Source: Spirochaetales bacterium Spiro_02 (GTDB lineage: Bacteria > Spirochaetota > Spirochaetia > Sphaerochaetales > Sphaerochaetaceae). Taken from it: a stretch of 64,000 nucleotides of DNA. A program made the translations under genes and the position numbers. Below are positions 63 through 44,562 of this stretch, one piece after another; the first letter of the stretch is position 1, and each line of letters starts with the position of its first letter. The notes under the pieces were generated by a model. It saw only the letters and a list, made by a program, of their open reading frames with translations. It searched no databases and was not told the origin of the DNA. The stretch is from the NCBI GenBank assembly GCA_001604275.1, contig LVBD01000068.1:1-64000 (forward strand), written 5' to 3'.

Positions 63-134
63 GCGAGAGTAGCTCAGTGGTAGAGCTCCACCTTGCCAAG
101 GTGGATGTCGCGGGTTCAAGTCCCGTCTCTCGCT
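63..134 (+). tRNA. tRNA-Gly (anticodon GCC)
   Basis: The acceptor arm GCGAGAG (63-69) pairs with CTCTCGC (127-133), leaving U134 as discriminator base as expected for tRNA-Gly. The anticodon stem CCACC/GGTGG encloses TTGCCAA, giving anticodon GCC. The T arm reads CGGG-TTCAAGT-CCCG. The 3' CCA is not encoded. It sits directly after the 5S rRNA and is probably cotranscribed with it. Confidence 0.96.
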
Positions 135-247: not shown

Positions 248-1894
248 CTAGGACTTTGATCCTGTAGCTATTCTGCTTCGGAGCCTGAGAATATTCGAAG
301 GCGCTACAGATAGTTCATCGATGCCGATATCTATGAAGAAGTCGATAAGGGACTCGTCGGCACCGAGCTCACCGCAGATTCCGGCCCAGATTCCTGCACG
401 ATGCGCATTCTCCACCGTCATGCGGATCAAGCGAAGAATCGCCTCATGATGCGTATCGCAGAATTCTTCAAGCATATTGTTCTGACGGTCCACAGCCAGG
501 GTATATTGAGTCAGATCATTCGTACCGATGCTGAAGAAATCTACATGTCGTGCAAGTTCGTCGCTGATCAATGCCGCTGCCGGCGTCTCGATCATGATGC
601 CGAAGGGAACATTATCGGAGAATCGGACATGTTCCGAAGCAAGGTTCTCCCGGACCTGCCTTGCGATCTCTTTCGCCGCGATGACATCATCGAGACTGTT
701 GACCATGGGAATCATGATCGACACATCTCCGATACTCGCCGCACGATAGATGGCTCGCAACTGTGTCTCGAAGACAGCGGGGCGTTTCAGCGCTAGCCGG
801 ATTCCTCGAAGCCCGAGCGCCGGATTCTGCTCTTCTTCCAGTCCTAGATATGGAACCTGTTTGTCGGCTCCGATATCGATGGTACGGATAATGATTGGTT
901 TTCCTTCCATGAACCTGATGACTTTCCTGTACGCATTGAACTGGGTCTCTTCGTCGGGAGCGCTCCCACAGCACTTGAGGAACAGGAACTCGCTGCGGAG
1001 CAGGCCGATTCCTTCCGCATCGTTGTCGACGGCATAACGGGCGTCTTCCACTGAGCCGATATTCGCGAATAAGCGGATCGTATGCCCCATACTTGTCTTC
1101 GTCGGTTTCCCGCGAAATCCTTCGAGCACCTTCTGTTCGTGTTCCATTTGTTCCATTTCTCTGCGATAGGTCGCAACGACGCTTTCTTCGGGATCTATGA
1201 GCAACTGCCCCGAGGTACCGTCCACGATGACAAGCTTTCCGTCGAACTCCATCCGCAATGCAGGACCAAGTCCTACGATAGCCGGTATGCCGACGGTTCT
1301 CGCAAAAATCGCGGTATGCGATGTGATCGAACCATCTCGAGTGACGAACGCCGGAACTTGTGACCGTTCGAAGCGAGCTGTCTGGCTCGGTGAAAAATCG
1401 TCCGCGGCGAGAATCCGCGGTGTATCCGTTTCCGAGCCATCCTTGGTCCCGAATCCAAGATTCCTGATAATCTGCCGTGAGACATCCAGCACGTCGTTCG
1501 CACGACCGCTCATGTATTCATCATCCATGGAACTGAATATGGAAGCGAATTCGTCGCCCGTTTCCTGTACCGCATATTCAGCGCAGACATGCTCGTCCGC
1601 AATCTTTGCCGTCAATGAACTCTGGAAATCTTCGTCCTCGATCATCATCGCATGGATTTCGAACAAGTATGCAGCGTCATCGCCAAGTTTTCCTCGTAAA
1701 GTCTCGGAGCGATTCTGGAGTTGACGGACCGTCTCGTCGCATGCGATCCTCACCCGTTCCAGTTCCTTCGGGACATCTTCGATCGTTATCCGATCGACGC
1801 GAACAAAATCGTCGGCGAAACGAATATGACCGATGGCGATCCCAGGGCTCGCCCCTCGTCCGTGCAGTACAATCCGCCCAGCGTCATCCACCAT
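248..1894 (-). CDS. ptsI: Phosphotransferase system Enzyme I
   Basis: Enzyme I (548 aa, near the usual ~570) takes phosphate from phosphoenolpyruvate and passes it to HPr, energising PTS sugar uptake in the cytoplasm. The swivelling phosphohistidine domain is recognisable from the GSITSHTAIFARTVGIPAIVG motif near residue 190, where the His is the phosphorylated residue. The C-terminal PEP-binding TIM barrel carries DFFSIGTNDLTQYTLAVDR and the GICGE motif with the active-site Cys. The start at 1894 has an AAAGGAGGT ribosome site. It is the last gene of a seven-gene minus-strand operon that also supplies HPr, EIIA, EIICB and a regulator, so this Enzyme I may be dedicated to that sugar or may serve the whole cell. 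No other ptsI is in the window. Confidence 0.96.
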   Translation of the reverse strand: MVDDAGRIVLHGRGASPGIAIGHIRFADDFVRVDRITIEDVPKELERVRIACDETVRQLQNRSETLRGKLGDDAAYLFEIHAMMIEDEDFQSSLTAKIADEHVCAEYAVQETGDEFASIFSSMDDEYMSGRANDVLDVSRQIIRNLGFGTKDGSETDTPRILAADDFSPSQTARFERSQVPAFVTRDGSITSHTAIFARTVGIPAIVGLGPALRMEFDGKLVIVDGTSGQLLIDPEESVVATYRREMEQMEHEQKVLEGFRGKPTKTSMGHTIRLFANIGSVEDARYAVDNDAEGIGLLRSEFLFLKCCGSAPDEETQFNAYRKVIRFMEGKPIIIRTIDIGADKQVPYLGLEEEQNPALGLRGIRLALKRPAVFETQLRAIYRAASIGDVSIMIPMVNSLDDVIAAKEIARQVRENLASEHVRFSDNVPFGIMIETPAAALISDELARHVDFFSIGTNDLTQYTLAVDRQNNMLEEFCDTHHEAILRLIRMTVENAHRAGIWAGICGELGADESLIDFFIDIGIDELSVAPSNILRLRSRIATGSKS

Positions 1895-1931
1895 GTCTGC
1901 CTACCTCCTTTCTCTTGCCATCGCGGACCAG

Positions 1932-3194
1932 TCATTCGACACCGAAATGCGTCAGCAGAATCCGTTCCGCCTGCGCGTTCCACAATCCATCATGCGTTTG
2001 GCACGAAGCATCCAGACGAGCGAACAATGGATCTTGGGGGGCAAGCGCCCGGAAGTCCGAAAGCGCCGTCAGAGGAAGATCGATCTGCGGATAGCTGAGG
2101 ATCTTTCCTGCGTGGATTTCAGGAAGCCTTGCGGTGACGTCGGCCACGGCATCCAGACCGCAGATGTGGGAAACCATGACCGAAGGGCGAATCTTTCGTG
2201 CCGCGGAAAGCCTGAGTGCTTCCTTCAGATCGTCTGTGTTGCCTCCGGTGCTTCCGATGATGTGCGTACTGCCGTAATGGCAGTTGTACAGGTTCATCGA
2301 AGCTTGGAAGTTCTTGTCTGTGGGACCTGCGAAGAAATTGAGGCATCCGTCGAACGCCAGAACGCTATCTCCTAGTTCCGCGAGCGGTCTGACAGGAGCA
2401 TAGACGAACACATCATCGTATCCATGGCCTTCGGTCAGATCCATCAGGAGCGTCCGCTGGTCCGCTGCGTCCTTCAGATTGACATATTGCAACGCGACGC
2501 CGTACGACGAGGCTTTCTCCGGAGATATGATATATTCGGCGCGGGACAGACGTCCCTGGTCGATATCCGCGACCACCAGTTTCGCCGGACGGTTGCCTCC
2601 AACCAAAGGATATTCGATTGCACCGAGCCCCATCGGACCCGCTCCGCCGAGTATCAGGACGTTGCCGCCTTCTTTGATCCCCATGCTATGGCGGTAATCG
2701 GACATGTTCGTATGATACATGCTATTGTATCCGCCTATGATGCAACTCATCGGTTCCCCAAGCGATGCGTCGAAATATGCATCCCCATCGTAATGGAGCA
2801 GACAACCAAGTTCCATCACCTCGGCGGGCATGATGCAATACGATGCCGACCCCCCGCAGAATTCATAGGAATACCCCGGGGACGCAAGGCTTCCCTTGTA
2901 GTTGAGCGCCGGCTGTTGAGCGAATTTTTCGCCGGGACGAAATTCATTACTCCATTTTTTTCCGACTTGCACGATGTCTCCTGCGAACTCGTGACCGATG
3001 ATGATCGGATTCGTATCGACGTTCTGCGGACAACGTTTGTGTTTTTTCCCCTGTTTGAGCAACTTGTACGTGGACATGCACAGGCTGTCGCTGACGATTC
3101 TTACTAGGATTTCGTCGTCCTTGATCGGTGGTAGCTCGAATTCTTCGAGCCTTAGGTCATCAGCACCATACAATCTGATCGCGCGAGTTTTCAT
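1932..3194 (-). CDS. yggP: YggP/SorE-like zinc-binding sugar-phosphate dehydrogenase
   Basis: A medium-chain zinc-dependent dehydrogenase (420 aa). It has the N-terminal catalytic domain with LCMSTYK and GHEFAGDIVQVG, a Rossmann nucleotide-binding segment with LGGAGPMGLGAIEY, and the long C-terminal block DGCLNFFAGPTDKNF then STGGNTDD. From memory these blocks align along the whole length with E. coli YggP, which sits beside the cryptic mannitol PTS genes cmtAB. They also resemble L-sorbose-1-phosphate reductase SorE. It lies between the fruK-like kinase and ptsI in a mannitol-type PTS operon lacking mtlD, so it probably oxidises the hexitol phosphate made by the PTS. The exact substrate and product are inferred. 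Ribosome site GGAAAGGAAGG lies before the ATG at 3194. Confidence 0.88.
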   Translation of the reverse strand: MKTRAIRLYGADDLRLEEFELPPIKDDEILVRIVSDSLCMSTYKLLKQGKKHKRCPQNVDTNPIIIGHEFAGDIVQVGKKWSNEFRPGEKFAQQPALNYKGSLASPGYSYEFCGGSASYCIMPAEVMELGCLLHYDGDAYFDASLGEPMSCIIGGYNSMYHTNMSDYRHSMGIKEGGNVLILGGAGPMGLGAIEYPLVGGNRPAKLVVADIDQGRLSRAEYIISPEKASSYGVALQYVNLKDAADQRTLLMDLTEGHGYDDVFVYAPVRPLAELGDSVLAFDGCLNFFAGPTDKNFQASMNLYNCHYGSTHIIGSTGGNTDDLKEALRLSAARKIRPSVMVSHICGLDAVADVTARLPEIHAGKILSYPQIDLPLTALSDFRALAPQDPLFARLDASCQTHDGLWNAQAERILLTHFGVE

Positions 3195-3224
3195 AATACC
3201 TTCCTTTCCTGCCTCGAGGGTGTT

Positions 3225-4157
3225 TCAGAACGGATTCAACGAGACTTGCCCCGCCAGCCGATGTACGAGCTCGGCCGATGGGGGAGCTGTGCCGACCGTC
3301 ATTACGGCGGCGGCGGATGACGCTATCGACAATGCGCATGTCGATTCAATGGACATGCCATGTGAAAAACCGTATGCGAGCGCCCCTACCATGCAATCCC
3401 CGGCGCCTACCGGCGATTGTACTGGAACCTGGAGCGCAGGGGCGAACAGCGAGACCTTCTTTGCAACGAAAAGCGCTCCTTCTTCGCCAAGCGATAGCGC
3501 GACGAACCCGACACCTTCTTGAACAAGCGTAGCGCACATCTGCTTCAGATCGGAAAGATTCGATTTTTCAGGCGCATCGAACAGCTGGGTCAGTTCATAT
3601 CGGTTGGGCTTGATGAACTGAGGGGAGCTTTTCAGCGCCAGCTTCAACGGCAGTCCATCGGCGTCGACGAAGACAGAACCTCCCGCTTGCTTGAGCGTTG
3701 CGCACAGATTTCCGTACGTGTCGTTTCCGAGCCCGAGTGGAAGGCTTCCTGAAAGGACGAAAAGCGTATCGTTCCGGCAATAGGAGAGCAATGTATCGAC
3801 AAGAAACGCATAGGACCGTTTGGAAACTTTGAAGCCAGGTTCGTTGAGTTCCGTAAGCCGACCGCTGGAATCGACCACTTTCAGATTCGTTCTGGTCGTC
3901 GCTCCGGCAATCCTGACGAAATTATGCGGAACATGCAGCTTGTCCATGCCGGCCGTCAGCGGGTCATGCCCATCGCCTCCGTTGAACCCTGTCGCAAGCA
4001 CGTCCCCCCCAAGGGCGGAAATCATCGCTGCTACGTTGATTCCTTTTCCGCCTGCGTTCGTTGACATGTCATGCAGCCGATTCAAAGCGTTGGGGACTAG
4101 TCTGTCGACATGCCCCGTTTTGTCGATCGCTGGATTCATCGTTACGGTGACTATCAT
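3225..4157 (-). CDS. fruK: 1-phosphofructokinase family kinase (FruK/LacC type)
   Basis: A PfkB-superfamily sugar-phosphate kinase (310 aa) of the 1-phosphofructokinase/tagatose-6-phosphate kinase branch. Diagnostic motifs are MNPAIDKT at the N-terminus, AGGKGINVAAMISALGG, the TELNEPG segment and the C-terminal nucleotide and catalytic motif SPVGAGDCMVGA. It would phosphorylate fructose-1-phosphate to fructose-1,6-bisphosphate, or tagatose-6-phosphate if it is of the LacC type. The ATG at 4157 overlaps the TGA of mtlF (ATGA), which implies translational coupling. The reading frame stays open upstream as far as 4523, but that part is antisense-like noise inside mtlF. The position between EIIA and a zinc dehydrogenase suggests it acts on the ketose phosphate made by that dehydrogenase. 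Confidence 0.9.
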   Translation of the reverse strand: MIVTVTMNPAIDKTGHVDRLVPNALNRLHDMSTNAGGKGINVAAMISALGGDVLATGFNGGDGHDPLTAGMDKLHVPHNFVRIAGATTRTNLKVVDSSGRLTELNEPGFKVSKRSYAFLVDTLLSYCRNDTLFVLSGSLPLGLGNDTYGNLCATLKQAGGSVFVDADGLPLKLALKSSPQFIKPNRYELTQLFDAPEKSNLSDLKQMCATLVQEGVGFVALSLGEEGALFVAKKVSLFAPALQVPVQSPVGAGDCMVGALAYGFSHGMSIESTCALSIASSAAAVMTVGTAPPSAELVHRLAGQVSLNPF

Positions 4158-4615
4158 GGCGAAGTTTCTCCTTTGTCGTAAAATACTGCGCGGATGGTTT
4201 CCATATCCCCATGCTCGACAAGATGCAGGACATCCTCTTCTGTTTCGAGGTTGTCGACGACATTCCCCAGAATGTCGAGATGCGCTTCGCCGATGGCGGC
4301 GATTCCTATCACCAAGTGAACGACAGTTCCGTTCCATGAAATGCCTTCTGGATAGGTGACTACGACGATGCCGGTCGACTTGATATATTGCTTGTAATCG
4401 TTCGTGCCATGGGGAATCGCGATATGGTTCCCGATAGCGGTACTCAACTCTCGGTCCCGTGCCAGCATGCCTTCGACATACCGTTCCGTCACATACCCTC
4501 CATCGACAAGCATTCTGCCGCATCTTCGGATCGCATCTTCATACGGTTCCGCAGGCTGTCCGAGTACGATGTTCTCCTCTCTCAGAATATTCGCATGCTC
4601 TGTGCTCCGGCTCAT
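4154..4615 (-). CDS. mtlF: PTS mannitol-type EIIA component
   Basis: A separate EIIA domain of the mannitol/fructose family (153 aa). It accepts phosphate from HPr on the His in the IAIPHGTND motif (about residue 70) and passes it to EIIB of the permease. The length is that of free-standing MtlF proteins. It is encoded right after mtlR and before fruK, with an AAGGAG ribosome site about 11 bases upstream of the ATG. The permease in this operon has only IIC and IIB domains, so this protein completes the phosphorelay. Confidence 0.93.
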   Translation of the reverse strand: MSRSTEHANILREENIVLGQPAEPYEDAIRRCGRMLVDGGYVTERYVEGMLARDRELSTAIGNHIAIPHGTNDYKQYIKSTGIVVVTYPEGISWNGTVVHLVIGIAAIGEAHLDILGNVVDNLETEEDVLHLVEHGDMETIRAVFYDKGETSP

Positions 4616-4623
4616 CGGTCACA

Positions 4624-6672
4624 TTACTCCTTCGGTTTGATTTTTTCTTTGCAGTACGTATCTAGATATTCCATGATAGCTGACTCAAGATGTTCCAGGA
4701 CGACCGCTTTGTCTCCCTGCTGGACTGCGAGGAGGAATTGGGGGTCGTCGATCAGGCTCCCGCTCAACATGCCGATGATTTTCTGAATGCCGTTCGGCGA
4801 TTTCTCCGGGACCAGTGCAAGCAGGCAGCTTTTTGCGCCTTGTAGTTCGGACTGGATGAACGTCCCCGACTGCGGGAGCAACAAGGACAGGACCGGCAGT
4901 TCGACTCCTTTCGTCCTAGCATGGAGCAGGACGATCTTCAGTTCAGGGACCACTTGAGTGGAGATCGCTTCTCGCTTCATGAGATCGAGATAGATGGTAT
5001 TCCCGCTCGTCGGCTGTGCACCGAACCGGTAGCCGGCGAATTTCGCAAGATCTTCCACCGTACAGTCGGAATCCACCGATACGGCCTTGAAATTGTCGAG
5101 CAAGCCTTTCGCATGTTGCAAAAGCGAAATCATTTCGTCGAGTTTCGTCGGTATGGACAAGCCGCCTCCGATCGTGACGCTGCGCGACCTTCTGGGCGAG
5201 AATGCATAGGTCGAAATCGCTTCTCGGATTTTTCTGTAGTCCTCGTCCGTCAGCAATGCGTTCACTTGGACGACGGGCCAGTCTGTATTTTCCAAAGGAA
5301 CGGAGGAAACGAGGATGTCGCAGGAGTTCCACGAAGGACAATCATTCCAGTCGCAGATGACGATCTCGAGTTCCCCTCTATAGCGTTTGCGCATCTGGGA
5401 TGCGATCATGTAGGAAACCCCGACTCCTGCCGCACAGACGACTCCTGTGCGTAGCACGCGCTTGCGGCTGTCCTGTTCTTCGACGTTTGCAAGAGATGCG
5501 CAGAAATGTGCTGCGATAAACGATATTTCACTATCTGGAATGACGACGTGCCGTTGTTCCTCAAGGACTGAGACTGCTTCTCGCGTCTTTTCATATACGT
5601 CTGGATACAGCTCGGCGAGCTTCCCTTCCAACGGATCGGGGAGGTACATCCGTTGTTCCAGACGAGGGAGCGCTGCCCAAAGATGCAACGTCAGTCCTTG
5701 AACCAGCATCTCGTCAAGCTTCAGCCGGGGAGAGTTCGTATGGTCGAAGCGTTCGATCATCTGGAAGACGATCGATTGGAGCTTGAGATCAGGACCAGCT
5801 TCCCCGATCTTGACGGGATCGCGTTGCTTCGATCTGCTTGTGGTCAGCTGGAACGCGAGGGCGTTCCGCTCCCTTTGAGAAAAGATGATTGGGAAATAGG
5901 CTTCCAGTTCATCTGCGACAAGTTCCGCGAGAGGTCTTGAAAAGCCTTTGACAATGGGGCCTTCCGTCGCAAGCTGATGCCCGTTGAGCAGTCGGTCTAC
6001 GGTGACCATCAGAAATATCCGCATCATTTCCTCGGATTCCGATGTCATCCAGTTCATTGAAGGAGCGAAGGCGTGTTCCCAGACTTCCCTGATATGTTGT
6101 TCAATCTCCATGGAAGGATAGCCGAATCGCTGGGCATACGTACCGTCGAATAGGGAAAATTCTATCAACTGGGAAATCAATGTGATCCTGATCGCCGATT
6201 CGTCGCCTTCGATTGTCACGCCGAGCCCTGGTTTCCGGACAAGCGATATTCCGTGTTCGGCGAGTACTGGCTCGATATCGTCGAAGTCGTTGCTGACGGT
6301 CGCTTCGCTGACCTTGAGAATATCGGCATAGTACGCCAGTTTCTGGATTCCAGCGGCGTTGAGCAGTTCGATCAGCAGACAAACGCCGCGTTCATGCTTG
6401 TTCCTTTGGAATGTAGCGTTCGTGCGCAGGGACTGGGCAAAAATGTCCCTGTCCCTATCGTCTCCGGCAAGTGCGATTCCTTTCCGAGGAATCGATGCAA
6501 GCCGGAGTCCGTACGGCTCCAGCAGCTTGTCTATCGATTCAAGTTCCCGAAATACGGTCCTCCGACTGCTCCCCAACGAAGATGCGAGGTCGTCGACGCG
6601 AACAGGCTGGTCGGAGGCAAGAAGAATTTCCAGAAGGCGAGTCAACCGTGGAGAGATTATCGGTGAAGACAT
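4624..6672 (-). CDS. mtlR: MtlR-type PTS-regulated transcriptional activator
   Basis: A multidomain regulator (682 aa) of the MtlR/LicR group. An N-terminal DeoR-like helix-turn-helix (roughly residues 1-60, with SSRRTVFRELE) and a second HTH region are followed by two PTS regulation domains. Next come an EIIB-like domain with the Cys-containing loop VVCAAGVGVSYM and a C-terminal EIIA-like domain around LKIVLLHAR. Such proteins activate mannitol or hexitol operons when phosphorylated by HPr on a PRD and not by the EIIB partner. The ATG at 6672 is preferred over one at 6696 because a G-rich ribosome site precedes it. It lies between HPr and EIIA inside the operon it presumably controls. Confidence 0.9.
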   Translation of the reverse strand: MSSPIISPRLTRLLEILLASDQPVRVDDLASSLGSSRRTVFRELESIDKLLEPYGLRLASIPRKGIALAGDDRDRDIFAQSLRTNATFQRNKHERGVCLLIELLNAAGIQKLAYYADILKVSEATVSNDFDDIEPVLAEHGISLVRKPGLGVTIEGDESAIRITLISQLIEFSLFDGTYAQRFGYPSMEIEQHIREVWEHAFAPSMNWMTSESEEMMRIFLMVTVDRLLNGHQLATEGPIVKGFSRPLAELVADELEAYFPIIFSQRERNALAFQLTTSRSKQRDPVKIGEAGPDLKLQSIVFQMIERFDHTNSPRLKLDEMLVQGLTLHLWAALPRLEQRMYLPDPLEGKLAELYPDVYEKTREAVSVLEEQRHVVIPDSEISFIAAHFCASLANVEEQDSRKRVLRTGVVCAAGVGVSYMIASQMRKRYRGELEIVICDWNDCPSWNSCDILVSSVPLENTDWPVVQVNALLTDEDYRKIREAISTYAFSPRRSRSVTIGGGLSIPTKLDEMISLLQHAKGLLDNFKAVSVDSDCTVEDLAKFAGYRFGAQPTSGNTIYLDLMKREAISTQVVPELKIVLLHARTKGVELPVLSLLLPQSGTFIQSELQGAKSCLLALVPEKSPNGIQKIIGMLSGSLIDDPQFLLAVQQGDKAVVLEHLESAIMEYLDTYCKEKIKPKE

Positions 6673-6749
6673 AGCGACCCCCGCGCATACGCGCATCGAA
6701 CGTGCGGACAGTCATATGGCATGAATGCGAAGGTGGTCGCCGTCATCGA

Positions 6750-7007
6750 TTACAGTTCCTTGGACAGAATGTCCTTCGCAGCGTCAATCGCCTGGCTAGC
6801 ATCGTCGCCTTCGGCGCTGACGACAATTGTTTCTCCGCATTTGACACGAAGTCCCATCAATGCGAACAGCTTCTTGCCATCCACAATTTTGTCACCTCTC
6901 GTAACGTGGATAGCGCTCTCGAACTGTTTCATGCATTGTACGAAAAGCCCTGCAGGCCGGGCGTGAATCCCGGCGCTGTCAGTGATAGTATACCTGAATT
7001 CCTGCAT
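6750..7007 (-). CDS. ptsH: HPr-like phosphocarrier protein
   Basis: An HPr protein (85 aa, normal size) relaying phosphate from Enzyme I to EIIA. The active-site His15 lies in AGIHARPAG at the standard position. Position 46, where HPr of Gram-positive bacteria and many others has the regulatory serine, is lysine here (DGKKLFALMG), so regulation by HPr kinase at this site is not possible. It sits 15 bases downstream of the EIICB gene, inside the hexitol operon. This suggests a phosphocarrier dedicated to this PTS, though it might also be the only HPr of the cell. Confidence 0.93.
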   Translation of the reverse strand: MQEFRYTITDSAGIHARPAGLFVQCMKQFESAIHVTRGDKIVDGKKLFALMGLRVKCGETIVVSAEGDDASQAIDAAKDILSKEL

Positions 7008-7022
7008 GGCATGGTCCTTGAA

Positions 7023-8420
7023 TCACTGTTCTTCGCTGAAACCAGAGCGAAGATCTTCGACAATCCGGTCGTATTCCGGTGCATTGAGGAAATCCGTAAT
7101 TACGACAAACTTTGCATGACGGTTCTTTTCCGCCGCTCGTTCACGGAGCTCATGATGCACGACGATGACGTCGGCATCGTCAGGAATCTCGTTGACCGAG
7201 GCATGCAGGACCGCTACGTTCGTGATGCCTGCGTTCAGCAGTTTCTTCTTCAATCGCGTCGCCCCCATGGCGCTCGATCCCATTCCTGCGTCACATGCGA
7301 AAACGATTTTCTGTACCGGTCCGCCATGGACTGTGCCAGTGGTCGGTTCGCCCTTGGATTCCCTCTTCATCGCCTTGACTTCCGCCTTCGCGGTTTCCAG
7401 CGACGCCTCTTCCTTGCCGAACGCCTTGAGCAGGACGACCGAAAGCAGGAAGGTCGCGACCGCTCCGACCAGGATCCCCATGATGTTCGCGAAGTATGCT
7501 CCATGGGGCGTCATGATCAATTCCGCGAAAATGCTTCCGGGCGATGCCGCGGCGATCAGTCCCCCGCCCAGGATGGACAGCGTCAGCACGCCCATGAAAC
7601 CTCCGCCGATCATCGCGACGATCAGAATCGGGTTCATCAATACATACGGGAAATAGATTTCGTGGATTCCTCCCAGGAAGTGGATGATGATCGCCCCCGG
7701 TGCGCTGTTCTTCGCTTCTCCTTTTCCTACTAGGGAATAGGCGAGCAGCAACCCCAATCCGGGACCAGGATTCGATTCGATCATGAAGAAGATGGACTTG
7801 CCGGTTTCCGCGGCTTGCTGGGCGCCAAGCGGCGTGAATATGCCATGGTTGATGGCGTTGTTGAGGAACAGGACTTTCCCAGGTTCGACAAGGATCGAAG
7901 TCAGCGGCAGCAGGTTGTGCTTGACGAGCCAGCCGACGCCGGCGCTGAGGATCGCGTTGAGTCCTGCCACCAGAGGCGCGATGCCGAGGAAGCAGAGTAT
8001 CGCAAGCAACGCTCCGACGATTCCTGCCGAAAAATTGTTCACCAGCATCTCGAAGCCTTCCTTGATATGGCCCTCCAGCGCCCTGTCCACTTTCTTGATG
8101 ACCCATCCTCCTAGCGGGCCTGCGATCATGGCTCCCATGAACATGGTGATATCGGCGCCGAGAATCACGCCCATCGTCGCGATCGCTCCAACGACTCCGC
8201 CTCGGATTCCCCCGCTGACCATCTTGCCTCCGGTATAACCAATCAGCAGCGGCAGCAGATAGGTAAGCATTGGACCGACCATGCTTCCGAGGCGTTCGTT
8301 CGGCGTCCAACCTGTCGAAATGAAGAATGCGGCGATCAAACCCCAGGCGATGAAAGCGCCGATATTCGGCATTACCATCCCGCTCAGGAACCGCCCGACT
8401 TTCTGTACACCCTTTTTCAT
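7023..8420 (-). CDS. mtlA: PTS mannitol-type permease EIICB
   Basis: A membrane permease (465 aa) with an N-terminal IIC domain (about residues 10-335, several hydrophobic helices) and a C-terminal IIB domain (about 375-465). IIC motifs typical of mannitol permeases are FLNNAINHG, GPGLGLLLAY and GGIHEIYFPYVLMNP. IIB has the phosphocysteine loop ACDAGMGSSAMGAT. It transports and phosphorylates a hexitol, most likely mannitol, although the exact sugar cannot be read from sequence. It lacks the fused IIA domain of E. coli MtlA, supplied here by MtlF. The ATG at 8420 follows a GAGGAGG ribosome site. First gene of the seven-gene operon. Confidence 0.94.
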   Translation of the reverse strand: MKKGVQKVGRFLSGMVMPNIGAFIAWGLIAAFFISTGWTPNERLGSMVGPMLTYLLPLLIGYTGGKMVSGGIRGGVVGAIATMGVILGADITMFMGAMIAGPLGGWVIKKVDRALEGHIKEGFEMLVNNFSAGIVGALLAILCFLGIAPLVAGLNAILSAGVGWLVKHNLLPLTSILVEPGKVLFLNNAINHGIFTPLGAQQAAETGKSIFFMIESNPGPGLGLLLAYSLVGKGEAKNSAPGAIIIHFLGGIHEIYFPYVLMNPILIVAMIGGGFMGVLTLSILGGGLIAAASPGSIFAELIMTPHGAYFANIMGILVGAVATFLLSVVLLKAFGKEEASLETAKAEVKAMKRESKGEPTTGTVHGGPVQKIVFACDAGMGSSAMGATRLKKKLLNAGITNVAVLHASVNEIPDDADVIVVHHELRERAAEKNRHAKFVVITDFLNAPEYDRIVEDLRSGFSEEQ

Positions 8421-8706: not shown

Positions 8707-8768
8707 ATATTCGAAAAGAAAAGGCATGGTAGCTTTTTTACTGAATGATCGTTGAGGAGCAATGCAGT

Positions 8769-9551
8769 ATGGTTGGTTCGGTCTATAATCCTCCATTTAC
8801 ACAGGATGGTCGCAAGACGCTCGTTTCGCGGAAGGAAATTCATCCCGACATGCTGATGGACATCAATGTCCACCAGCTGAAGCGTGGTGAAGTCAGAACG
8901 TTTCGTCGAGCAGGGGATGAGATGGCGCTGCTGCTGATCCAAGGCGACGTGACGTTCCGGTGGAACGGACAATCCGTGCGGGCGGTCCGTAAGGATTTCT
9001 TCAACGAGCGGCCTTGGTGTCTCCATGTTCCGAAAGACATGGAAATCATGGTCGAGGCTTCCGGACCGACTGAGTTGCTGGAACAGGCCACGGACAACGC
9101 AAGTTCTTTCTCTCCTTGCATGTATACTCCGGCGGATTGCGAGGACGTGGTAAGCGGCGCCGGATTGTACGGTGGGGAAGCCGTACGTACTGTCCGGACG
9201 ATCTTTGATCACGGAACCGCACCATACTCGAATTTCGTCTGCGGTGAAGTGTTGCATTCTCCCGGGCAGTGGTCGAGCTATATACCGCATCATCATCCGC
9301 AGCCTGAGGTCTATTACTATCGGTTCGACAAGCCGCAGGGGTTCGGAGCCGCGTTCGTCGGCGACGATGCCTTTAAGATCACCGATGGGGCCGTCAGTGC
9401 GATCACTCCGGGAAAGACGCACCCGCAGGCATGTGCTCCCGGCTACAGGATGTATTATGTCTGGATGATCAGGCATCTGCCCGGCGATCCATGGGATCGC
9501 ACACGGATCGATGACCCGGCCCATATATGGTTGCTTTCGGAGGGGAAGTAA
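8769..9551 (+). CDS. iolB: 5-deoxy-glucuronate isomerase
   Basis: IolB (260 aa) converts 5-deoxy-D-glucuronate to 2-deoxy-5-keto-D-gluconate in myo-inositol catabolism. The double cupin fold of the KduI/IolB family is recognisable from the metal-binding segment SYIPHHHPQPEVYYYRF followed by the later PGKTHPQACAPGYRMYYVW. The ATG at 8769 is chosen because GGAG lies about nine bases upstream. An in-frame ATG at 8745 would overlap that ribosome site. It is the first gene of the plus-strand arm of the inositol region. The substrate is made by IolD on the opposite arm. Confidence 0.94.
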   Translation: MVGSVYNPPFTQDGRKTLVSRKEIHPDMLMDINVHQLKRGEVRTFRRAGDEMALLLIQGDVTFRWNGQSVRAVRKDFFNERPWCLHVPKDMEIMVEASGPTELLEQATDNASSFSPCMYTPADCEDVVSGAGLYGGEAVRTVRTIFDHGTAPYSNFVCGEVLHSPGQWSSYIPHHHPQPEVYYYRFDKPQGFGAAFVGDDAFKITDGAVSAITPGKTHPQACAPGYRMYYVWMIRHLPGDPWDRTRIDDPAHIWLLSEGK

Positions 9552-9650
9552 GATTCTCAGGATGCTCGTCATCCCTGCGTGAATGACACGATGGGAATAG
9601 TGATGGCATGTTATTTGCTTTTCATGCGTCTTGTTTTTGGTCGGATATTA

Positions 9651-9666
9651 TTGCAAACGTTCCCAT
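9651..9666 (+). promoter_or_regulatory. LacI-family operator upstream of the EEP hydrolase gene
   Basis: TTGCAAACGTTCCCAT shares its first eleven bases with the operator before iolG. It is the only clear signal in the 215-base gap between iolB and the next gene. It suggests that the hydrolase and the kinase behind it are controlled by the same regulator. Confidence 0.65.
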
Positions 9667-9734
9667 GTATTAGCTGAAGCTGGGAAGAAAAAGCAGTGGT
9701 GGAAAGCCAGTCTTTCACTACAAAGATATTACAT

Positions 9735-9769
9735 AAGGAGGTCGAGACGTCTACTCGACAGTTTTCATG
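9735..9769 (+). promoter_or_regulatory. Ribosome site separated from its start codon by a hairpin
   Basis: The AAGGAG ribosome site (9735-9740) is about 26 bases from the ATG at 9767, too far for normal initiation, and no in-frame start codon lies between. The gap is filled by a perfect inverted repeat, GTCGAG (9741-9746) and CTCGAC (9754-9759). Folding it would bring the ribosome site to about seven bases from the ATG. Confidence 0.6.
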
Positions 9770-10825
9770 GAACCGATAGCGTCCCGTTCGATCCTCAACC
9801 GGTTTTCCGAACGTCTGGCCACCGAACCTCAACAGACGATCATTGAAGAAATCAAGCAGTTTTCGGAGGCAACGATTCATGCGGTCGCACAGCACGATGG
9901 TGGATGTGACGAAACCGACGCATTGCGAATCCTAGTCTTCAACATGGAGCGGGGCGTACATCTACAGGAAACAATCGATTTCCTCAAATATGTTCCGGAC
10001 TCCCGGCCGTTCGATGTAATTCTTGCCAATGAGTTGGATGATGGCTGCGAACGATCTGAAAATCGTGATGTAGCTCAGGAGATCGCCTGCGCATTGCACA
10101 TGGACTATGTATTCGGACTGGAATTCTTGGAACTGGTCGGGGACGGAAACGATAAAGGCTACCACGGCAATGCGGTTTTTTCACGTTGGCCGATTCTTTG
10201 GGCGAAGACGATCAGACTGCCTGAGCAGTACAACTGGTATTTCGACCGACAGCGCCGCATCGGCGGACGGAATGCCGTTCTGGCGAAGCTCGATATCGGC
10301 GAAAACGAGATCGGAGTAGCCTCGATCCATCTGGAAAACCGGACCACCGGGGTAGGGCGATCGCTCCAGATGCGTACAGTCCTCGATGCGGTTGAAAGGT
10401 ATTTCGGCGACCTACCGGTGGTTTTGGGCGGGGACTTCAATACGAATGGATTTGACGGAAGCGACATTGAGGAAATTTGTGCTTTGATCGACTCTCCGCA
10501 AGCATTCGCAGACAGGTCGCGCCAGCTGGAACGGTATGAACCTTTGCTCGGCCTCTGTTCCGACCGGGGCTATCTACGTTGCGGACCTTCGACTGATAGC
10601 CAACAGTACACACGGCGCAAGACGATTCCGAAAGGCGGTTTCATGCCGTTGCGTTTGGATTGGCTGTTTTCCCGGGGTTTTACAGTGGATTCGTACAGGA
10701 TCGCATCGACGTTGACCGAAGACTGCAAGTTCGCTCCGGAAGGAAGTGCTCTTGCACAGTTTAAAAAATCGGAATTGAGCGACCATAACGCAGTTTGGGC
10801 TCGATACAAGATACACAGCGCATAG
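9767..10825 (+). CDS. Endonuclease/exonuclease/phosphatase (EEP) family hydrolase
   Basis: A soluble protein (352 aa) of the EEP fold shared by DNase I-like nucleases, inositol polyphosphate 5-phosphatases and sphingomyelinases. All catalytic motifs are present in order: VFNMERG, ANELDDG (metal-binding Glu), YHGNAVFSR, SIHLENR (His), GGDFNTNG, LRLDWLFSRG and the terminal LSDHNAVWARY. No signal peptide is seen. It lies between iolB and a PfkB kinase and has its own LacI-type operator, so an inositol-phosphate or phosphoinositide-type phosphoester is a plausible substrate. The fold alone does not prove that. The only start in reach is the ATG at 9767, preceded by a hairpin-spaced ribosome site. 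Confidence 0.85.
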   Translation: MEPIASRSILNRFSERLATEPQQTIIEEIKQFSEATIHAVAQHDGGCDETDALRILVFNMERGVHLQETIDFLKYVPDSRPFDVILANELDDGCERSENRDVAQEIACALHMDYVFGLEFLELVGDGNDKGYHGNAVFSRWPILWAKTIRLPEQYNWYFDRQRRIGGRNAVLAKLDIGENEIGVASIHLENRTTGVGRSLQMRTVLDAVERYFGDLPVVLGGDFNTNGFDGSDIEEICALIDSPQAFADRSRQLERYEPLLGLCSDRGYLRCGPSTDSQQYTRRKTIPKGGFMPLRLDWLFSRGFTVDSYRIASTLTEDCKFAPEGSALAQFKKSELSDHNAVWARYKIHSA

Positions 10826-10846
10826 GGGAAATGCATGGAGGGTGAC

Positions 10847-11728
10847 ATGGGCAAGTTTGATCTCTGTATCCTGGGGCAACCGTCTTTGGATATTAATGTC
10901 GATTTCGGTGGCGATGTGGAACGTCGGGTAGGTGGGGCCGTCGTATATTCCGCATATGCGGCGTCTTCTGTCGGTTATTCCGTCGCGGTTCTTCCGAAAA
11001 TGAATCGGAACGAAATCGACATCGATAGAGTCTTCGCGGGAAGCTCCGGCATCACGATATTTCCGCTGGACAGTCCTCATAGCACTTCGATCGAGAATAT
11101 CTATCATTCTGCGGATCGTGAGAAACGGACCTGCAGAGCGATCGGGAGAATCGCCCCGTATCGTGTAGAAGAGATTCCTGATATCGATGCTCCAGTCTAT
11201 CATATCGCAGGCTTGATGCAAGGTGATCTGGGCAATGAAATCATAGCATTCGCATCTCGCAAAGCAGCGGCCGCAGTAGATGTTCAGTGTCTGCTCCGGT
11301 GTGTAGAAGGCGATTCCATGGTTTTTCATGATTGGAAGGAGAAAAAGGAATTCCTTCCGATGATCTCATTCCTCAAGACCGATGCTGCGGAAGCCGAAAT
11401 CATGACAGGAATGACGGATCGAACGGAAGCGGCGAAGCAACTGTATGATTGGGGAGCGAAGGAAGTGATGATCACCCACAACAGCGAGGCGCTGGTATAC
11501 GACGGAAGAACGATCCATACTTCGCCGCTGAAACCCAGGAATCTGCGCGGGAGAACCGGCCGAGGCGATACGATCTTCGCCACGTATCTGTGCGAACGAC
11601 TGACTTCCGATATTCCTGCTGCGTTGGAATTCTCCGCTGCGCTTGTTTCTCTGAAAATGGAGACTCCCGGACCGTTCAGAGGAACCAGAGCTGATGTCCA
11701 AGCATATGTATCGGAGTTCTATCGCTAG
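10847..11728 (+). CDS. PfkB-family carbohydrate kinase, substrate unknown
   Basis: A ribokinase/PfkB-superfamily kinase (293 aa). It shows the N-terminal LCILGQPSLDINVDFGG strand-turn and VGGAVVYSAYAAS. The C-terminal catalytic motif is GRTGRGDTIFATY, where the Asp is the catalytic base and the usual GAGD reads GRGD. It follows the EEP hydrolase closely in the inositol region. Normal inositol pathways need a PfkB-type kinase (IolC) for 2-deoxy-5-keto-D-gluconate. This protein is shorter than and poorly similar to Bacillus IolC as remembered, so it may be a replacement for it or an inositol or polyol kinase. The ATG at 10847 follows GGAGGG; an upstream in-frame ATG at 10835 is also possible. 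Confidence 0.82.
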   Translation: MGKFDLCILGQPSLDINVDFGGDVERRVGGAVVYSAYAASSVGYSVAVLPKMNRNEIDIDRVFAGSSGITIFPLDSPHSTSIENIYHSADREKRTCRAIGRIAPYRVEEIPDIDAPVYHIAGLMQGDLGNEIIAFASRKAAAAVDVQCLLRCVEGDSMVFHDWKEKKEFLPMISFLKTDAAEAEIMTGMTDRTEAAKQLYDWGAKEVMITHNSEALVYDGRTIHTSPLKPRNLRGRTGRGDTIFATYLCERLTSDIPAALEFSAALVSLKMETPGPFRGTRADVQAYVSEFYR

Positions 11729-11762
11729 GTTGGCTCGTGAGTTTCTAGGAATTGTCGTCTCT

Positions 11763-11791
11763 TTGTTGTATAGTATGGAGAATACTATTGT
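11763..11791 (+). promoter_or_regulatory. Predicted lacI-type gene promoter with internal palindrome
   Basis: TTGTTG (11763-11768), a 17-base spacer and TATTGT (11786-11791) form a promoter. Filling the spacer and reaching into the -10 box is a perfect 7-bp inverted repeat, ATAGTAT and ATACTAT (11770-11776, 11782-11788). It differs from the TTGCAAACG operators, so it may bind another protein or be used for autoregulation. Confidence 0.5.
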
Positions 11792-11806
11792 GTGGGAGTT
11801 TTGCGT

Positions 11807-12799
11807 ATGATCAGCATCAGGGATATCGCGAAACGTGTCGGCATGTCCTCATCGACTGTCTCTCGTGTAGTCAACGGAAAGTCGAATGTCAACGATGAGA
11901 CGCGTGAGAAGATCCTGAAAGTCATTGAAGAATCCGGATATGTCCCCAATCGAGCCGCGCAGAACATGGTGATGAAGCGGAGCTTCACGATAGGAATCGT
12001 CATTCCTGCTATGTTCAACATGTTTCAACGACAATTGTTTTCCGTGATGGAGCGGGGACTGGAACTCTTCGGATACCGGACATTCTTCTTTTTCGTTGAG
12101 CCGAATGAGGCGAGCGAAGAAGCTTGCATCCGCGGAATGCAGGCGGAGAATCTCGATGGCGCCATCATCCTTCAGGATATTCAGGACGCTAGATTCTGCG
12201 AATATCTCCGTCGCAGCCGACTTCCCGTTGTATTCTCGACGATCGAATGCGAAGACTTTCCAACGGTTCATATCGACGATGAACGGGCGGCGATCGATGC
12301 CGTAGCCCATCTTGTCGAATTGGGGCATAGGGATATCGTCATGATCAGCAGCGGCGGTTTTACGTTCGGAAACATGAGAATGAAAGGATTCCTGCAGGCG
12401 CTCCGGTCTGCAGGGTTGCCGGCTGAAGAGGATCGCGTGCTATATACGGAGAGCTATACCGCCGAAGCCGGCATGCAGGGAATGAAGGAACTGCTCAGAA
12501 GAAGGAATGGTTTTTCCGCTGTATATGCAGCGACCGACGAGCTCGCCATCGGGGCGATGCGGGCTCTTGCCGATGCCGGAATCAGGGTTCCGGAAGATGT
12601 TTCCGTGATCGGGCTCGACGACATCGAGATATCAAGCTACATGATTCCCAGATTGACGACGATCCAGCAGCCATTGGATGAACTGGGAGAGAGGACTGTA
12701 TCGATGCTCCAGCAGTATATAGATGAAGACTATAGCGACGAAAAACGTATCATTCTTCCGCATCGGCTGGTTGTCAGGGATTCGACTGCATCTCGTTGA
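11807..12799 (+). CDS. LacI-family transcriptional regulator, probable inositol regulator
   Basis: A LacI-family repressor (330 aa). Residues 1-50 hold the DNA-binding helix-turn-helix and hinge helix (ISIRDIAKRVGMSSSTVSRVVNG). The rest is a periplasmic-binding-protein-like effector domain with VYAATDELAIGAMRAL and VSVIGLDDIEISSYMIPRLTTIQQP. The ATG at 11807 with GGGAG eight bases upstream is preferred to a GTG at 11792. The window holds four CG-centred operators of the LacI class before inositol genes and the sugar transporter, and this is the only LacI-family gene present. It is therefore the likely regulator, with inositol or an early metabolite as inducer. A run of eight T follows the stop codon. 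Confidence 0.93.
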   Translation: MISIRDIAKRVGMSSSTVSRVVNGKSNVNDETREKILKVIEESGYVPNRAAQNMVMKRSFTIGIVIPAMFNMFQRQLFSVMERGLELFGYRTFFFFVEPNEASEEACIRGMQAENLDGAIILQDIQDARFCEYLRRSRLPVVFSTIECEDFPTVHIDDERAAIDAVAHLVELGHRDIVMISSGGFTFGNMRMKGFLQALRSAGLPAEEDRVLYTESYTAEAGMQGMKELLRRRNGFSAVYAATDELAIGAMRALADAGIRVPEDVSVIGLDDIEISSYMIPRLTTIQQPLDELGERTVSMLQQYIDEDYSDEKRIILPHRLVVRDSTASR

Positions 12800-38099: not shown

Positions 38100-39431
38100 A
38101 TGTTGGAGAACGGCAGACAGTATGATGACTGGAAGTATTCGGGTGAAGACCGCCCTGACGGCCGCAGACCGTCTGTGGCAGGCTTCGATCCGGCAGTCGG
38201 AGGAGGTTTGAGCGCCTTTACCTTCCTCTGTGTCGTCATTACGCTGACCGGAGCCGGGCTTGTGATGATGTACAGCGCATCCTATAACGAAGCGCTTTCC
38301 CTTGGTTTGCCGCATCATTATTTTTTTATCCGTCAGTCCTTGTTCGTATTGCTCTCTCTTGCATGTTCGGTCGTCATCAGGTTCATCCCGATTTCCTGGA
38401 TCAGGAAATCTTCCCCCCTGTTGCTTGCCGGATGCCTGCTGCTGATGCTGATGACCTTGTTTACCCCGTTCGGACAGACTAGGATGGGTGCCAGAAGATG
38501 GCTGAGCATTGGACCTCTGCCATCGTTCCAGCCGTCGGAACTTGTCAAGCTTTCGTTGATTATCTTCCTCTCCGGATGGTTTTCTTCCGAAAAAAGCGAA
38601 CGGTCGAACCTCAGGAAGCTCGTGACGCCCGCACTCGTAGTGCTTGTGTTCGCCGCTTTGATTCTCCTTCAGCGGGATTATTCCACCACGATCGTCTACC
38701 TCGGAGTCTGTCTGTCGCTGTTCATTGTCGGTGGTGTTTCGTTTGGCTGGATGGCGCTGTTCATTGCATTTCTCGCCGTGCCCGGAATTTTGGCGCTGTT
38801 CATCGCTCCCTACCGAGTCAAACGCCTGGTTGCGTTCCTATTCAGTGACTTGGATCCTTCTGGAATCAATTGGCAGGTCACCAATGCCCGAAAGGCGATA
38901 GCCGCGGGTGGATGGACAGGCGTAGGACTGGGCAACGGCGTGTACAAGCTAGGATCGATTCCCGAAGTGCAAAGCGATTTCATTTTCGCTTCGATGGCGG
39001 AAGAGACCGGCTTTCTCGGGATAGCGATAGTCTTCGTGCTATTTTTTCTCTTTGCATTGTTGGGATATCGGACATGGCAGAGAATGTTGGATCGGAATCG
39101 ATTTCTTGCGTACCTTGCGTTCGGTATCACGACGATGATCGTTGGACAAGCGTTGGTGAACATAGCTGTGGTTACCGGTGTGCTTCCACCGACAGGAATC
39201 CCGTTGCCGTTCTTTTCCCAGGGCGGAACGAATCTATTCGTCGTTCTGTGCGAATGCGCGCTGCTGTATCGGATCATGCTGATCGCAGGGGGACGGATCG
39301 CTGTGGATGGGCGCAAGAAAGCCGAGGCGCCCCCTCCGTCCAATCTGGCCCGGCAGTCATTGGTTGCGGAGCTACCGCCGTCTGAAGACGCATACGATTT
39401 CCCGGAAGGGATGCCGCGCTATGAGCAGTAG
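38100..39431 (+). CDS. ftsW: Lipid II polymerase/division protein FtsW
   Basis: A SEDS-family membrane protein (443 aa, about ten helices) that polymerises lipid II at the septum. A ~38-residue soluble N-terminus leads into the first helix with GLVMMYSAS. Diagnostic SEDS motifs are QTRMGARRWLSIGPLPSFQPSELVKL, LLQRDYSTT (with the catalytic-region Asp), VTNARKAIAAGGWTGVGLGNGVYKLGSIPEVQSDFIFA and PTGIPLPFFSQGGTN. Gene order makes it FtsW rather than RodA. Its partner transpeptidase is not encoded here; the class B PBP at 49768 is a candidate. It overlaps ftsQ by 11 bases. Confidence 0.94.
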   Translation: MLENGRQYDDWKYSGEDRPDGRRPSVAGFDPAVGGGLSAFTFLCVVITLTGAGLVMMYSASYNEALSLGLPHHYFFIRQSLFVLLSLACSVVIRFIPISWIRKSSPLLLAGCLLLMLMTLFTPFGQTRMGARRWLSIGPLPSFQPSELVKLSLIIFLSGWFSSEKSERSNLRKLVTPALVVLVFAALILLQRDYSTTIVYLGVCLSLFIVGGVSFGWMALFIAFLAVPGILALFIAPYRVKRLVAFLFSDLDPSGINWQVTNARKAIAAGGWTGVGLGNGVYKLGSIPEVQSDFIFASMAEETGFLGIAIVFVLFFLFALLGYRTWQRMLDRNRFLAYLAFGITTMIVGQALVNIAVVTGVLPPTGIPLPFFSQGGTNLFVVLCECALLYRIMLIAGGRIAVDGRKKAEAPPPSNLARQSLVAELPPSEDAYDFPEGMPRYEQ

Positions 39432-40224
39432 GCGTCAGCTCCGTTCGGGAATTCCCGCATCCGTCAAAATACTGCTCCTGCTCGCTCTTGTCTTCATTCT
39501 GTTGGCCTGGTATTCGCTCCGATTCATACCGCAGTTCGATATACAGCAGGTGGACATCAAGGTGACGGGTGGAACCGGACAGGTTCCGCTGGGAGCCAAC
39601 AGGATCGCAGGTCCTTTGAAAGGGCTTTCACAGTTCGAATTGCGACGTTCCGAACTCGAGAAACGGTTCGAGCAACTCGCGGTGGTCCAAAGCGCGAAAG
39701 TCACTCGGAAACTTCCCGACACTCTGACGGTGGATATTGTTCTCGTGGCGCCTCAGGCGCTGGTTGCGGCGGTCGATGACTCTGGAAGCCTTCTTGCGAC
39801 ATATTTGGTCAAACATGAACGGCTGATCGAGCTTCCCGCAGAAGACAGATCCGTCTATGGCGATACGGTATCTACCGTCGAAGTTCCCCAAGAATATGCG
39901 ACGTTGCTGAAACGGTATGGACTTGATGAAGGAATCAAGACGGTCCTGTCTCTTGTCGCAGATCTTAGGGAAGCCGATGAAACTCGCAATACCTTGATAA
40001 CGAAGATAAAATACGATAATAATAGTAGTAACAACTTTGGGCGCATGGTATTGGAACTTCCGCGCCACAACGCGAGGCTTTGGGTTCGAGAACCGGTTTC
40101 CGCGCAGTTGGTCGTGAAATCGATCGCTTTGATCGAGCAATCCGCAGAAAATGAACCGCTACGGTTTCTTGATCAGGAGCCGAAACGGTTCGATCTGTAT
40201 GCGGATGCCTTGGTAAAGCGATGA
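39421..40224 (+). CDS. ftsQ: Division protein FtsQ/DivIB
   Basis: A bitopic protein (267 aa) with a short basic N-terminus, one transmembrane helix (about residues 15-35, ASVKILLLLALVFILLAWYSL) and a periplasmic part. A POTRA-like segment begins FDIQQVDIKVTGG and continues with LEKRFEQLAVVQSAKVTRKLPDTLTVDIVLVAPQA, typical for FtsQ/DivIB. Primary sequence is poorly conserved in the family, so position between ftsW and ftsA is important evidence. The ATG overlaps the end of ftsW. Confidence 0.88.
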   Translation: MSSRRQLRSGIPASVKILLLLALVFILLAWYSLRFIPQFDIQQVDIKVTGGTGQVPLGANRIAGPLKGLSQFELRRSELEKRFEQLAVVQSAKVTRKLPDTLTVDIVLVAPQALVAAVDDSGSLLATYLVKHERLIELPAEDRSVYGDTVSTVEVPQEYATLLKRYGLDEGIKTVLSLVADLREADETRNTLITKIKYDNNSSNNFGRMVLELPRHNARLWVREPVSAQLVVKSIALIEQSAENEPLRFLDQEPKRFDLYADALVKR

Positions 40225-40254
40225 GCGTCAGAGTTGTGATCTGGAGGTAGCCAA

Positions 40255-41505: not shown

Positions 41506-41573
41506 ACTGGCCTGTTGCCAATGCCACGATGAAAATATGAGCCGAAATTGTGAATCGGCGAAGGATGAATAGC

Positions 41574-42815: not shown

Positions 42816-42820
42816 TACGA

Positions 42821-43768
42821 ATGTCGCAGGTAAAAATTCCTTCGGAAGAGTTGACTGACGAGTACCATGATTTTCTGACGTTCGAGCGGAGGCTGTCACC
42901 ATCTACTGTAGACGTGTATTGCCGTGAAGCGACATTGTACACTCGGTTTCTCGATATCCAGGGAATCTCACCGATGGATGTGGAAGCGTCGGAAATCGTC
43001 CGGTATTTGACCGAACGTTCGCGGGACGGTAGATTATGTGCACGAACCCAAGCCAGGAATATGACCGCGTTGAAAAGTTTCCATCGCTTTCTCATCGACC
43101 GCAAATTCCGTTCGGACAATCCAGTGGAATTGCTCGACCCGCCGAAACTTCCGGCATCGTTGCCTCGGGCGGCGGGATATGACGAGGTTGATGCATTGTT
43201 GTCGGTGATCGACGCAGACGACCCGAGCGGCCTCGGGATGCGTGATCTTGCCATGTTCGAGCTGATCTATTCCTGCGGCTTGCGGGTCAGCGAGGCGAAT
43301 GCTTTGAACATCGGCGACTATTTTCCCCAGGAAGGATTGCTCAGAGTGATCGGGAAACGGGACAAGCAACGAATCGTTCCTGTAGGGGATGTCGCACAGG
43401 AATATCTTGCCCGATACCTCGAGTCCGTTCGCCCGAAGTTGCTCGGAGCGAGGTTTCGTGAGCAGACGCTTTTCGTCGGTCGTCGCGGAAGGCCGCTGAC
43501 CAGAGCATTGATTTGGAAACGATTCAAGCGATACTGTGAACTTGCCGGAGTGGATGCGAAGGTACATACCCTCAGACATAGTTTCGCTACCCATCTGCTT
43601 CGCGGCGGGGCGGATCTTCGTAGTGTCCAGGAATTGCTCGGCCATAGCGATATCGGTACGACGCAAATATACACCCATGTCGATACCGATGACCTGTATG
43701 CCGCGTTCAAGGAGCATCATCCTGATGAACTGCGATCCGCCAGGTCCGATGAGAAAGGAAACGATTGA
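42821..43768 (+). CDS. Tyrosine recombinase, XerC/XerD family (first copy)
   Basis: A Xer-type tyrosine recombinase (315 aa). The N-terminal SAM-like core-binding domain covers about residues 10-100. The catalytic domain has Arg in [14 protein letters not shown], Lys in [40 protein letters not shown] with the His-x-x-Arg and His, and the nucleophile in TTQIYTHVD. Such pairs resolve chromosome dimers at dif. It starts six bases after ftsZ and is probably cotranscribed. A second Xer gene lies 1.8 kb downstream. Size and setting argue against a phage integrase. Confidence 0.93.
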
Positions 43769-43770
43769 CC

Positions 43771-44529: not shown

Positions 44530-44562
44530 ATCATCCGCCGATTGTTTCTCTATTGGTCCGGC

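Follow-up and report, generated by a model that had tools for sequence, protein, structure and literature searches.

The window analyzed here comprises positions 1 to 64,000 of contig LVBD01000068.1 from Spirochaetales bacterium Spiro_02 (GCA_001604275.1), a 2.61 Mb draft genome of the class Spirochaetia that is 99.7% complete. Seven genes on the minus strand at 248-8420 all run in one direction and encode, in order, a mannitol-type EIICB of the phosphotransferase system (PTS), the phosphocarrier HPr, a PRD regulator, EIIA, a FruK-type kinase, a zinc-dependent medium-chain dehydrogenase (ZnDH), and PtsI (Table 1). Because the intergenic gaps are short (8-53 bases) and the kinase start at 4157 overlaps the EIIA stop (ATGA), the genes are likely to form a single operon. 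Promoter and terminator scans performed no better than chance.

Table 1. Features of the operon and related genes. Positions refer to the window except where a locus is named.
Feature	Position	Strand	Basis or remark
Mannitol-type PTS EIICB (MtlA family)	7023..8420	-	ATG at 8420; first gene of operon
HPr phosphocarrier	6750..7007	-	PF00381, E 1e-26; active-site His in GIHARPAG
PRD/Mga-type transcription regulator, MtlR position	4624..6696	-	PRD, Mga and HTH_11 domains
EIIA, mannitol/fructose type	4154..4615	-	PF00359, E 2.8e-28
FruK-type kinase, predicted fructose-1-phosphate kinase	3225..4157	-	TIGR03168; residues N90/K92/N104; tree
ZnDH, YggP/SorE subfamily	1932..3194	-	49% identical to E. 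coli YggP, 46% to Klebsiella SorE
PtsI (enzyme I)	248..1894	-	TIGR01417, 532 bits (cut-off 341.7); last gene of operon
tRNA gene	63..134	+	RF00005, 71.4 bits; boundary at operon end, outside operon
Second EIICB-like gene, Lachnospiraceae examples	L194:3966-5306; L286:12733-14061; L287:2760-4103		

The EIICB scored above the curated cut-offs for mannitol IIC proteins (TIGR00851, 517.5 against 468.4 bits; PRK15083, 672 against 589) and was 59% identical to E. coli MtlA over 474 aa. The EIIA was 38-40% identical to the EIIA parts of E. coli FruB and MtlA. An earlier sequence-only reading of the window had named a mannitol-type EIICB, an EIIA and MtlR, and all three are present; HPr and PtsI are additions to its gene list. 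The "MtlR" owes its name to its position, being a PRD/Mga-type regulator that is unrelated to E. coli MtlR. Homologues of this regulator hold the same position in operons encoding the mannitol-1-phosphate dehydrogenase MtlD and in those encoding ZnDH alike. The operon HPr carries Lys in place of the usual Ser46, as do many of the nearest operon HPrs, making control by HPr kinase unlikely. Elsewhere in the genome there is a second PtsI, and the genome encodes one class II fructose-1,6-bisphosphate aldolase.

No MtlD was found in the source genome by a whole-genome homology search for the MtlD C-terminal family, which returned two family members only. One was a tagaturonate reductase (669 bits, cut-off 359) and the other a polyol dehydrogenase nearest to D-arabinitol 4-dehydrogenase/fructuronate reductase and far below every cut-off. 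When E. coli MtlD was used as the query, the source genome gave a weak match to the tagaturonate reductase and nothing else. The sequence-only reading was thus right that the usual mannitol-1-phosphate dehydrogenase is missing, both from the operon and from the genome, and an MtlD encoded elsewhere in the genome, which it had named as telling against its proposal, was searched for and rejected. Its description of MtlD as short-chain-like was mistaken, as the enzyme is a long-chain polyol dehydrogenase (PF08125). Fructose-specific EIIB was also not found in the source genome by a search that was positive in 6 of 14 control genomes. A fructose PTS was therefore rejected as the source of fructose-1-phosphate in this organism, and the operon FruK has no fructose PTS to serve.

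In MtlD's stead the operon carries ZnDH, which had been read as a YggP/SorE-like zinc dehydrogenase. This assignment held: identity to SorE/YggP enzymes was 46-50% over 99-100% of the length, and the catalytic zinc ligands are conserved, with C39, H68, E69, and E147 invariant across the three proteins. The position of Asp210, after the second Rossmann strand, suggests that the cofactor is NAD. An AlphaFold model (pLDDT 90) had an ordinary medium-chain dehydrogenase/reductase (MDR) fold, and a structure search retrieved general MDR alcohol and polyol dehydrogenases only, with no close solved relative and no clue to the substrate. In the ZnDH tree the window enzyme fell within an 81-row clade of mannitol-operon enzymes, SorE grouped with ZnDHs adjoining a sorbitol-6-phosphate dehydrogenase-like short-chain dehydrogenase/reductase (SDR), and YggP stood on its own branch. 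The identification of the window enzyme as SorE proper, an L-sorbose-1-phosphate reductase, was rejected on this placement.

SorE interconverts L-sorbose-1-phosphate and D-glucitol-6-phosphate, acting on the carbon beside the phosphorylated one, and deletion of sorE stops growth of E. coli on sorbose (PMC12817954). We predict that ZnDH has the same regiochemistry and is a mannitol-1-phosphate 2-dehydrogenase giving fructose-1-phosphate. D-Mannitol is C2-symmetric, such that oxidation of mannitol-1-phosphate at C5, as by MtlD, yields fructose-6-phosphate and oxidation at C2 yields fructose-1-phosphate. Mannitol-6-phosphate is the same compound as mannitol-1-phosphate and differs from glucitol-6-phosphate only at the far C2, and the sole difference between L-sorbose-1-phosphate and D-fructose-1-phosphate is at C5, remote from the carbon that reacts. 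It follows from these stereochemical relationships that the SorE reaction carried out on mannitol-1-phosphate would give fructose-1-phosphate.

The operon kinase scored 293.2 bits against the FruK subfamily model TIGR03168 (cut-off 216.4) and 285.7 against the 1-phosphofructokinase equivalog TIGR03828, just below the cut-off of 292; four operon-kinase relatives scored 291 to 339 with the latter. Its score with the LacC model was 149 bits (cut-off 409.6). Since BLAST identity, about 33% to both FruK and LacC, could not separate the two, a tree and diagnostic residues were used. N90, K92, and N104 are found in 14/14, 13/14, and 14/14 fructose-operon FruKs, respectively, as well as in the solved FruKs 2abq and 2jg5, whereas the corresponding residues are Cys or Ser, Ala, and Leu in LacC (2jgv and 2awd) and Asn, His, and Val in Pfk-2. 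All three were present in 61 of 62 main-group operon kinases, the window kinase among them. These data agree with the original assignment of a FruK-type kinase; a tagatose-6-phosphate kinase, the specificity that the sequence-only reading had considered fatal to its proposal, was rejected by model score, tree, and residues, which are FruK-like and not LacC-like.

The kinases adjoining mannitol-operon ZnDHs were not monophyletic. Their grouping as one clade, and with it a single origin of the kinase together with the operon, was rejected (approximately unbiased (AU) test, p 6e-71). The operon kinases of Caproiciproducens and of one further genome (G344) lay inside the fructose-operon FruKs of other Clostridia, and that of a third (G166) lay beside Azospirillum FruK. 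The Caproiciproducens kinase occupies a different place within the operon. As the G344 kinase is beside the operon and divergently transcribed, and the G166 kinase is just upstream of EIICB, Caproiciproducens is the firmest case of separate recruitment. The tree thus indicates that kinases joined ZnDH operons several separate times, from several FruK sources. Such separate recruitment of fructose-1-phosphate kinases to the same dehydrogenase is expected if the dehydrogenase makes fructose-1-phosphate.

To survey the distribution of the operon, the 80 closest ZnDHs were taken from GTDB species genomes and their neighbors counted within reach of the contig. EIICB was found in 65 loci, FruK in 60, both in 52, and MtlD in none; many loci lacking partner genes were short contigs. 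The survey that the sequence-only reading had proposed, for co-occurrence of yggP, a cmtAB-like PTS, and fruK without mtlD, was thus positive. The loci came from Spirochaetota, Bacillota, Planctomycetota, Actinomycetota, Elusimicrobiota, and other phyla, and their sources included termite-gut Treponema, Lachnospiraceae, other Clostridia, and "Deltaproteobacteria" metagenome-assembled genomes, with cultured strains among them. A fructose PTS was present in 7/7 named genomes without an operon FruK and in 7/11 with one, a difference that is no more than suggestive (p 0.12). In many Lachnospiraceae operons the mannitol EIICB is followed immediately by another EIICB-like gene, a divergent one with 35-37% identity (Table 1).

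ZnDH takes the place of MtlD in the same operon setting. Among 31 EIICB loci from a class-wide sample of 297 Spirochaetia genomes, 16 had ZnDH alone, 10 had MtlD alone, 2 had both, and 3 had neither, two of the last on short contigs. A PfkB/FruK-family kinase accompanied 13/16 ZnDH operons and 0/10 MtlD operons (Fisher p 1e-4). In the EIICB tree the dehydrogenase type switches at least five times among near neighbors; for example, L117 (MtlD) lies beside L111, L112, and L121 (ZnDH), and L114 (MtlD) lies beside L127 and L128. Because the switches occur among closely related transporters, the EIICBs of ZnDH and MtlD operons probably share one substrate. In G185, a ZnDH operon that lacks a kinase has a HAD phosphatase gene at its end (L123:1521-2192), and this enzyme might remove the phosphate from the ketose phosphate instead. 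Within the host's family, EIICB occurred in the source genome only, and a tRNA gene adjoins the end of the operon, making horizontal gain possible; its GC content (0.543, compared with 0.537 in the rest of the window) gave no compositional sign of transfer.

Two organisms with the operon are reported to use mannitol. Lacrimispora saccharolytica DSM 2544, which we took to be one type strain with WM1 (both are marked as type), produces acid from mannitol and none from sorbitol (PMC11316579). The WM1 operon reads EIICB-(second EIICB-like)-MtlR-EIIA-FruK-ZnDH with the FruK residues present, and no MtlD homologue was found in this genome by homology search. Across the 21 Lacrimispora genomes searched, 20 had no MtlD and one gave a weak match (E 1e-6). 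Sediminispirochaeta smaragdinae uses mannitol but not sorbose (PMC3035371). Its sole mannitol-type PTS operon carries ZnDH and a divergent kinase, and a homology search of the genome did not find MtlD.

Taken as a route, D-mannitol would be taken up through EIICB and EIIA, supplied by the HPr and PtsI that the operon itself encodes, and would enter as mannitol-1-phosphate. ZnDH would oxidize C2, beside the phosphorylated carbon, to yield D-fructose-1-phosphate and NADH, and the FruK-type kinase would convert this to fructose-1,6-bisphosphate for cleavage by the class II aldolase. On the sequence evidence we consider it very likely that this is a portable mannitol PTS operon without MtlD, operating through mannitol-1-phosphate, fructose-1-phosphate, and fructose-1,6-bisphosphate; the regiochemistry, cofactor, and in vivo flux are what we infer. 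The bypass of fructose-6-phosphate put forward in the sequence-only reading is thus supported by the lack of both MtlD and a fructose PTS, the dehydrogenase swap, the FruK-like kinase, and two mannitol users without MtlD, with the ZnDH product a prediction.

Several observations weigh against this reading. Treponema caldaria, whose genome holds the FruK-bearing operon as well as a distant MtlD homologue, does not use mannitol according to a published report (PMC3739177). MtlD homologues occur together with the operon in this genome (G288), G185, G204, G093, F. orotica, and E. barkeri. No kinase was found in the locus for 13/65 EIICB-bearing named loci or for 3/16 Spirochaetia ZnDH operons. The association of kinase with ZnDH in the Spirochaetia is weakened by relatedness, in that the tree yields no more than 4-5 independent contrasts; each of them is tied or goes the predicted way, but so few cannot reach significance. 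Finally, a Spirochaetia subgroup that includes S. smaragdinae has a divergent PfkB kinase lacking the FruK residues and the NPAxD Asp, so that in this subgroup only the replacement of MtlD is supported and the fructose-1-phosphate step is not. Such divergent kinases (L071, L108, L113, L120, L122, L125, L127, and L128) adjoin ZnDH and keep the catalytic Asp.

An operon dedicated to another hexitol (galactitol, glucitol) or a pentitol, in which ZnDH and the kinase would act through a different ketose-1-phosphate such as tagatose-1-phosphate, would account for the T. caldaria phenotype. It would also suit the presence of the operon (L177) in Caproiciproducens galactitolivorans, a species named for galactitol use, and it is generally known that FruK-like kinases can use tagatose-1-phosphate in other bacteria. 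We nevertheless regard a substrate other than mannitol as unlikely, since the EIICB exceeds the mannitol cut-offs and is interspersed with MtlD-operon EIICBs on the tree, L. saccharolytica is mannitol-positive and sorbitol-negative, and S. smaragdinae uses mannitol and not sorbose. Glucitol has the further difficulty that glucitol-6-phosphate would give sorbose-1-phosphate, for which there is no known route via FruK and fructose-1,6-bisphosphate aldolase.

Mannitol could be the substrate and yet be oxidized at C5, with ZnDH acting like MtlD to form fructose-6-phosphate and the kinase serving as a second 6-phosphofructokinase. GatD performs C5 chemistry on galactitol-1-phosphate and shares a fold superfamily with ZnDH (29% identity over 223 aa), and the kinase family includes Pfk-2. 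This arrangement is improbable in our judgment: SorE, the characterized member of the subfamily, acts beside the phosphorylated carbon, and the kinases have FruK and not Pfk-2 residues and derive several times from fructose-operon FruKs. Moreover, no such kinase was found in the 10 MtlD-only operons, where some would be expected if both routes gave fructose-6-phosphate. Still harder to credit is an accessory role for ZnDH, for example on glucitol or sorbose phosphates, with mannitol-1-phosphate oxidized by an unrelated enzyme encoded elsewhere or with mannitol entering otherwise and being oxidized unphosphorylated. The absence of MtlD does rest on homology, and other polyol dehydrogenases exist in these genomes, but ZnDH stands in MtlD's place in operon after operon and is kept with the mannitol EIICB over several phyla.

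The proposed fructose-1-phosphate route differs from each of the known systems that it resembles. With the classical mtlA(F)-mtlR-mtlD operon it shares the EIICB/EIIA family, a PRD regulator, and a product that enters glycolysis as a hexose phosphate, but MtlD is replaced by the zinc dehydrogenase and a FruK-type kinase; HPr and PtsI are also encoded within the operon, a trait of several Spirochaetia MtlD operons too. The L-sorbose operon sorCDFBAME contains the characterized relative SorE (46% identity), which likewise acts between a ketose-1-phosphate and a hexitol-6-phosphate. There, however, SorE works reductively, with a mannose-family PTS and the SDR SorD leading to fructose-6-phosphate, whereas the step proposed here is oxidative and is combined with a mannitol PTS and FruK. 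The window operon contains neither a mannose-family PTS nor an SDR dehydrogenase and was rejected as a sor operon. The mannitol/sorbitol pathway of the archaeon Haloarcula hispanica also passes through fructose-1-phosphate and 1-phosphofructokinase to fructose-1,6-bisphosphate, as proposed here, but mannitol enters by an ABC transporter and is oxidized to free fructose, followed by ketohexokinase (PMC11519228). The present route would instead phosphorylate mannitol on entry and then oxidize the phosphate.

In E. coli, cmtBA-yggP-yggF places a mannitol-type EIIA and EIICB beside a dehydrogenase of the same subfamily. It differs in having a fructose-1,6-bisphosphatase gene (yggF) and no kinase, so that fructose-1-phosphate would need the FruK of fruBKA. 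The role that the sequence-only reading had suggested for YggP is supported only in part: the subfamily and the neighboring PTS are shared, but YggP has its own branch, yggF is present, and FruK is lacking. Because YggP is found with YggF and without a kinase, the extension of the route to it is only a hypothesis, with chances that we put at about even.

The polyol mannitol is common in plants and in the diet, and its use through the PTS is usually recognized by the presence of mtlD. We think it likely that mannitol-1-phosphate 2-dehydrogenase and FruK constitute a second widespread bacterial mannitol pathway that replaces MtlD in whole groups (Lacrimispora and many termite-gut bacteria), with E. 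coli YggP/CmtAB as its remnant or variant. No description of such a route was found in the open-access literature, subscription papers lying outside that search. If the pathway operates as proposed, organisms such as Lacrimispora would be annotated as mannitol-negative although at least one of them ferments mannitol, and the operon would show clearly how exchanging a dehydrogenase can shift the point of entry into glycolysis beyond fructose-6-phosphate. The proposal also suggests a substrate for a dehydrogenase family whose present annotation is sorbose-1-phosphate reductase or unknown function, and it gives E. coli YggP and CmtAB a role that can be tested.

Divergent from the operon, at 8745-12799 on the plus strand, are a KduI/IolB-like isomerase that scores well below the IolB equivalog cut-off, an endonuclease/phosphatase-like open reading frame assigned by reading, a PfkB kinase, and a LacI regulator.

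A second SorE-type dehydrogenase, 57% identical to the operon ZnDH, is encoded elsewhere in the source genome (G000:C4:40305-41555). Its locus (L034:5062-13298; G000:C4 about 39061-47297) also encodes an SDR resembling sorbitol-6-phosphate dehydrogenase, an FGGY kinase resembling rhamnulokinase, and an ABC transporter of the ribose type, and looks like a PTS-free, sorbose-type ketose pathway. The genome thus has one mannitol-operon ZnDH and one SDR-paired ZnDH. A rhamnulokinase-like gene of the ketose-1-kinase family was adjacent in 25/33 loci in which ZnDH is paired with an SDR (SrlD). Rhamnulokinases phosphorylate O1 of ketoses, and their presence beside the SDR-paired ZnDHs fits a role for the whole family in handling ketose-1-phosphates.

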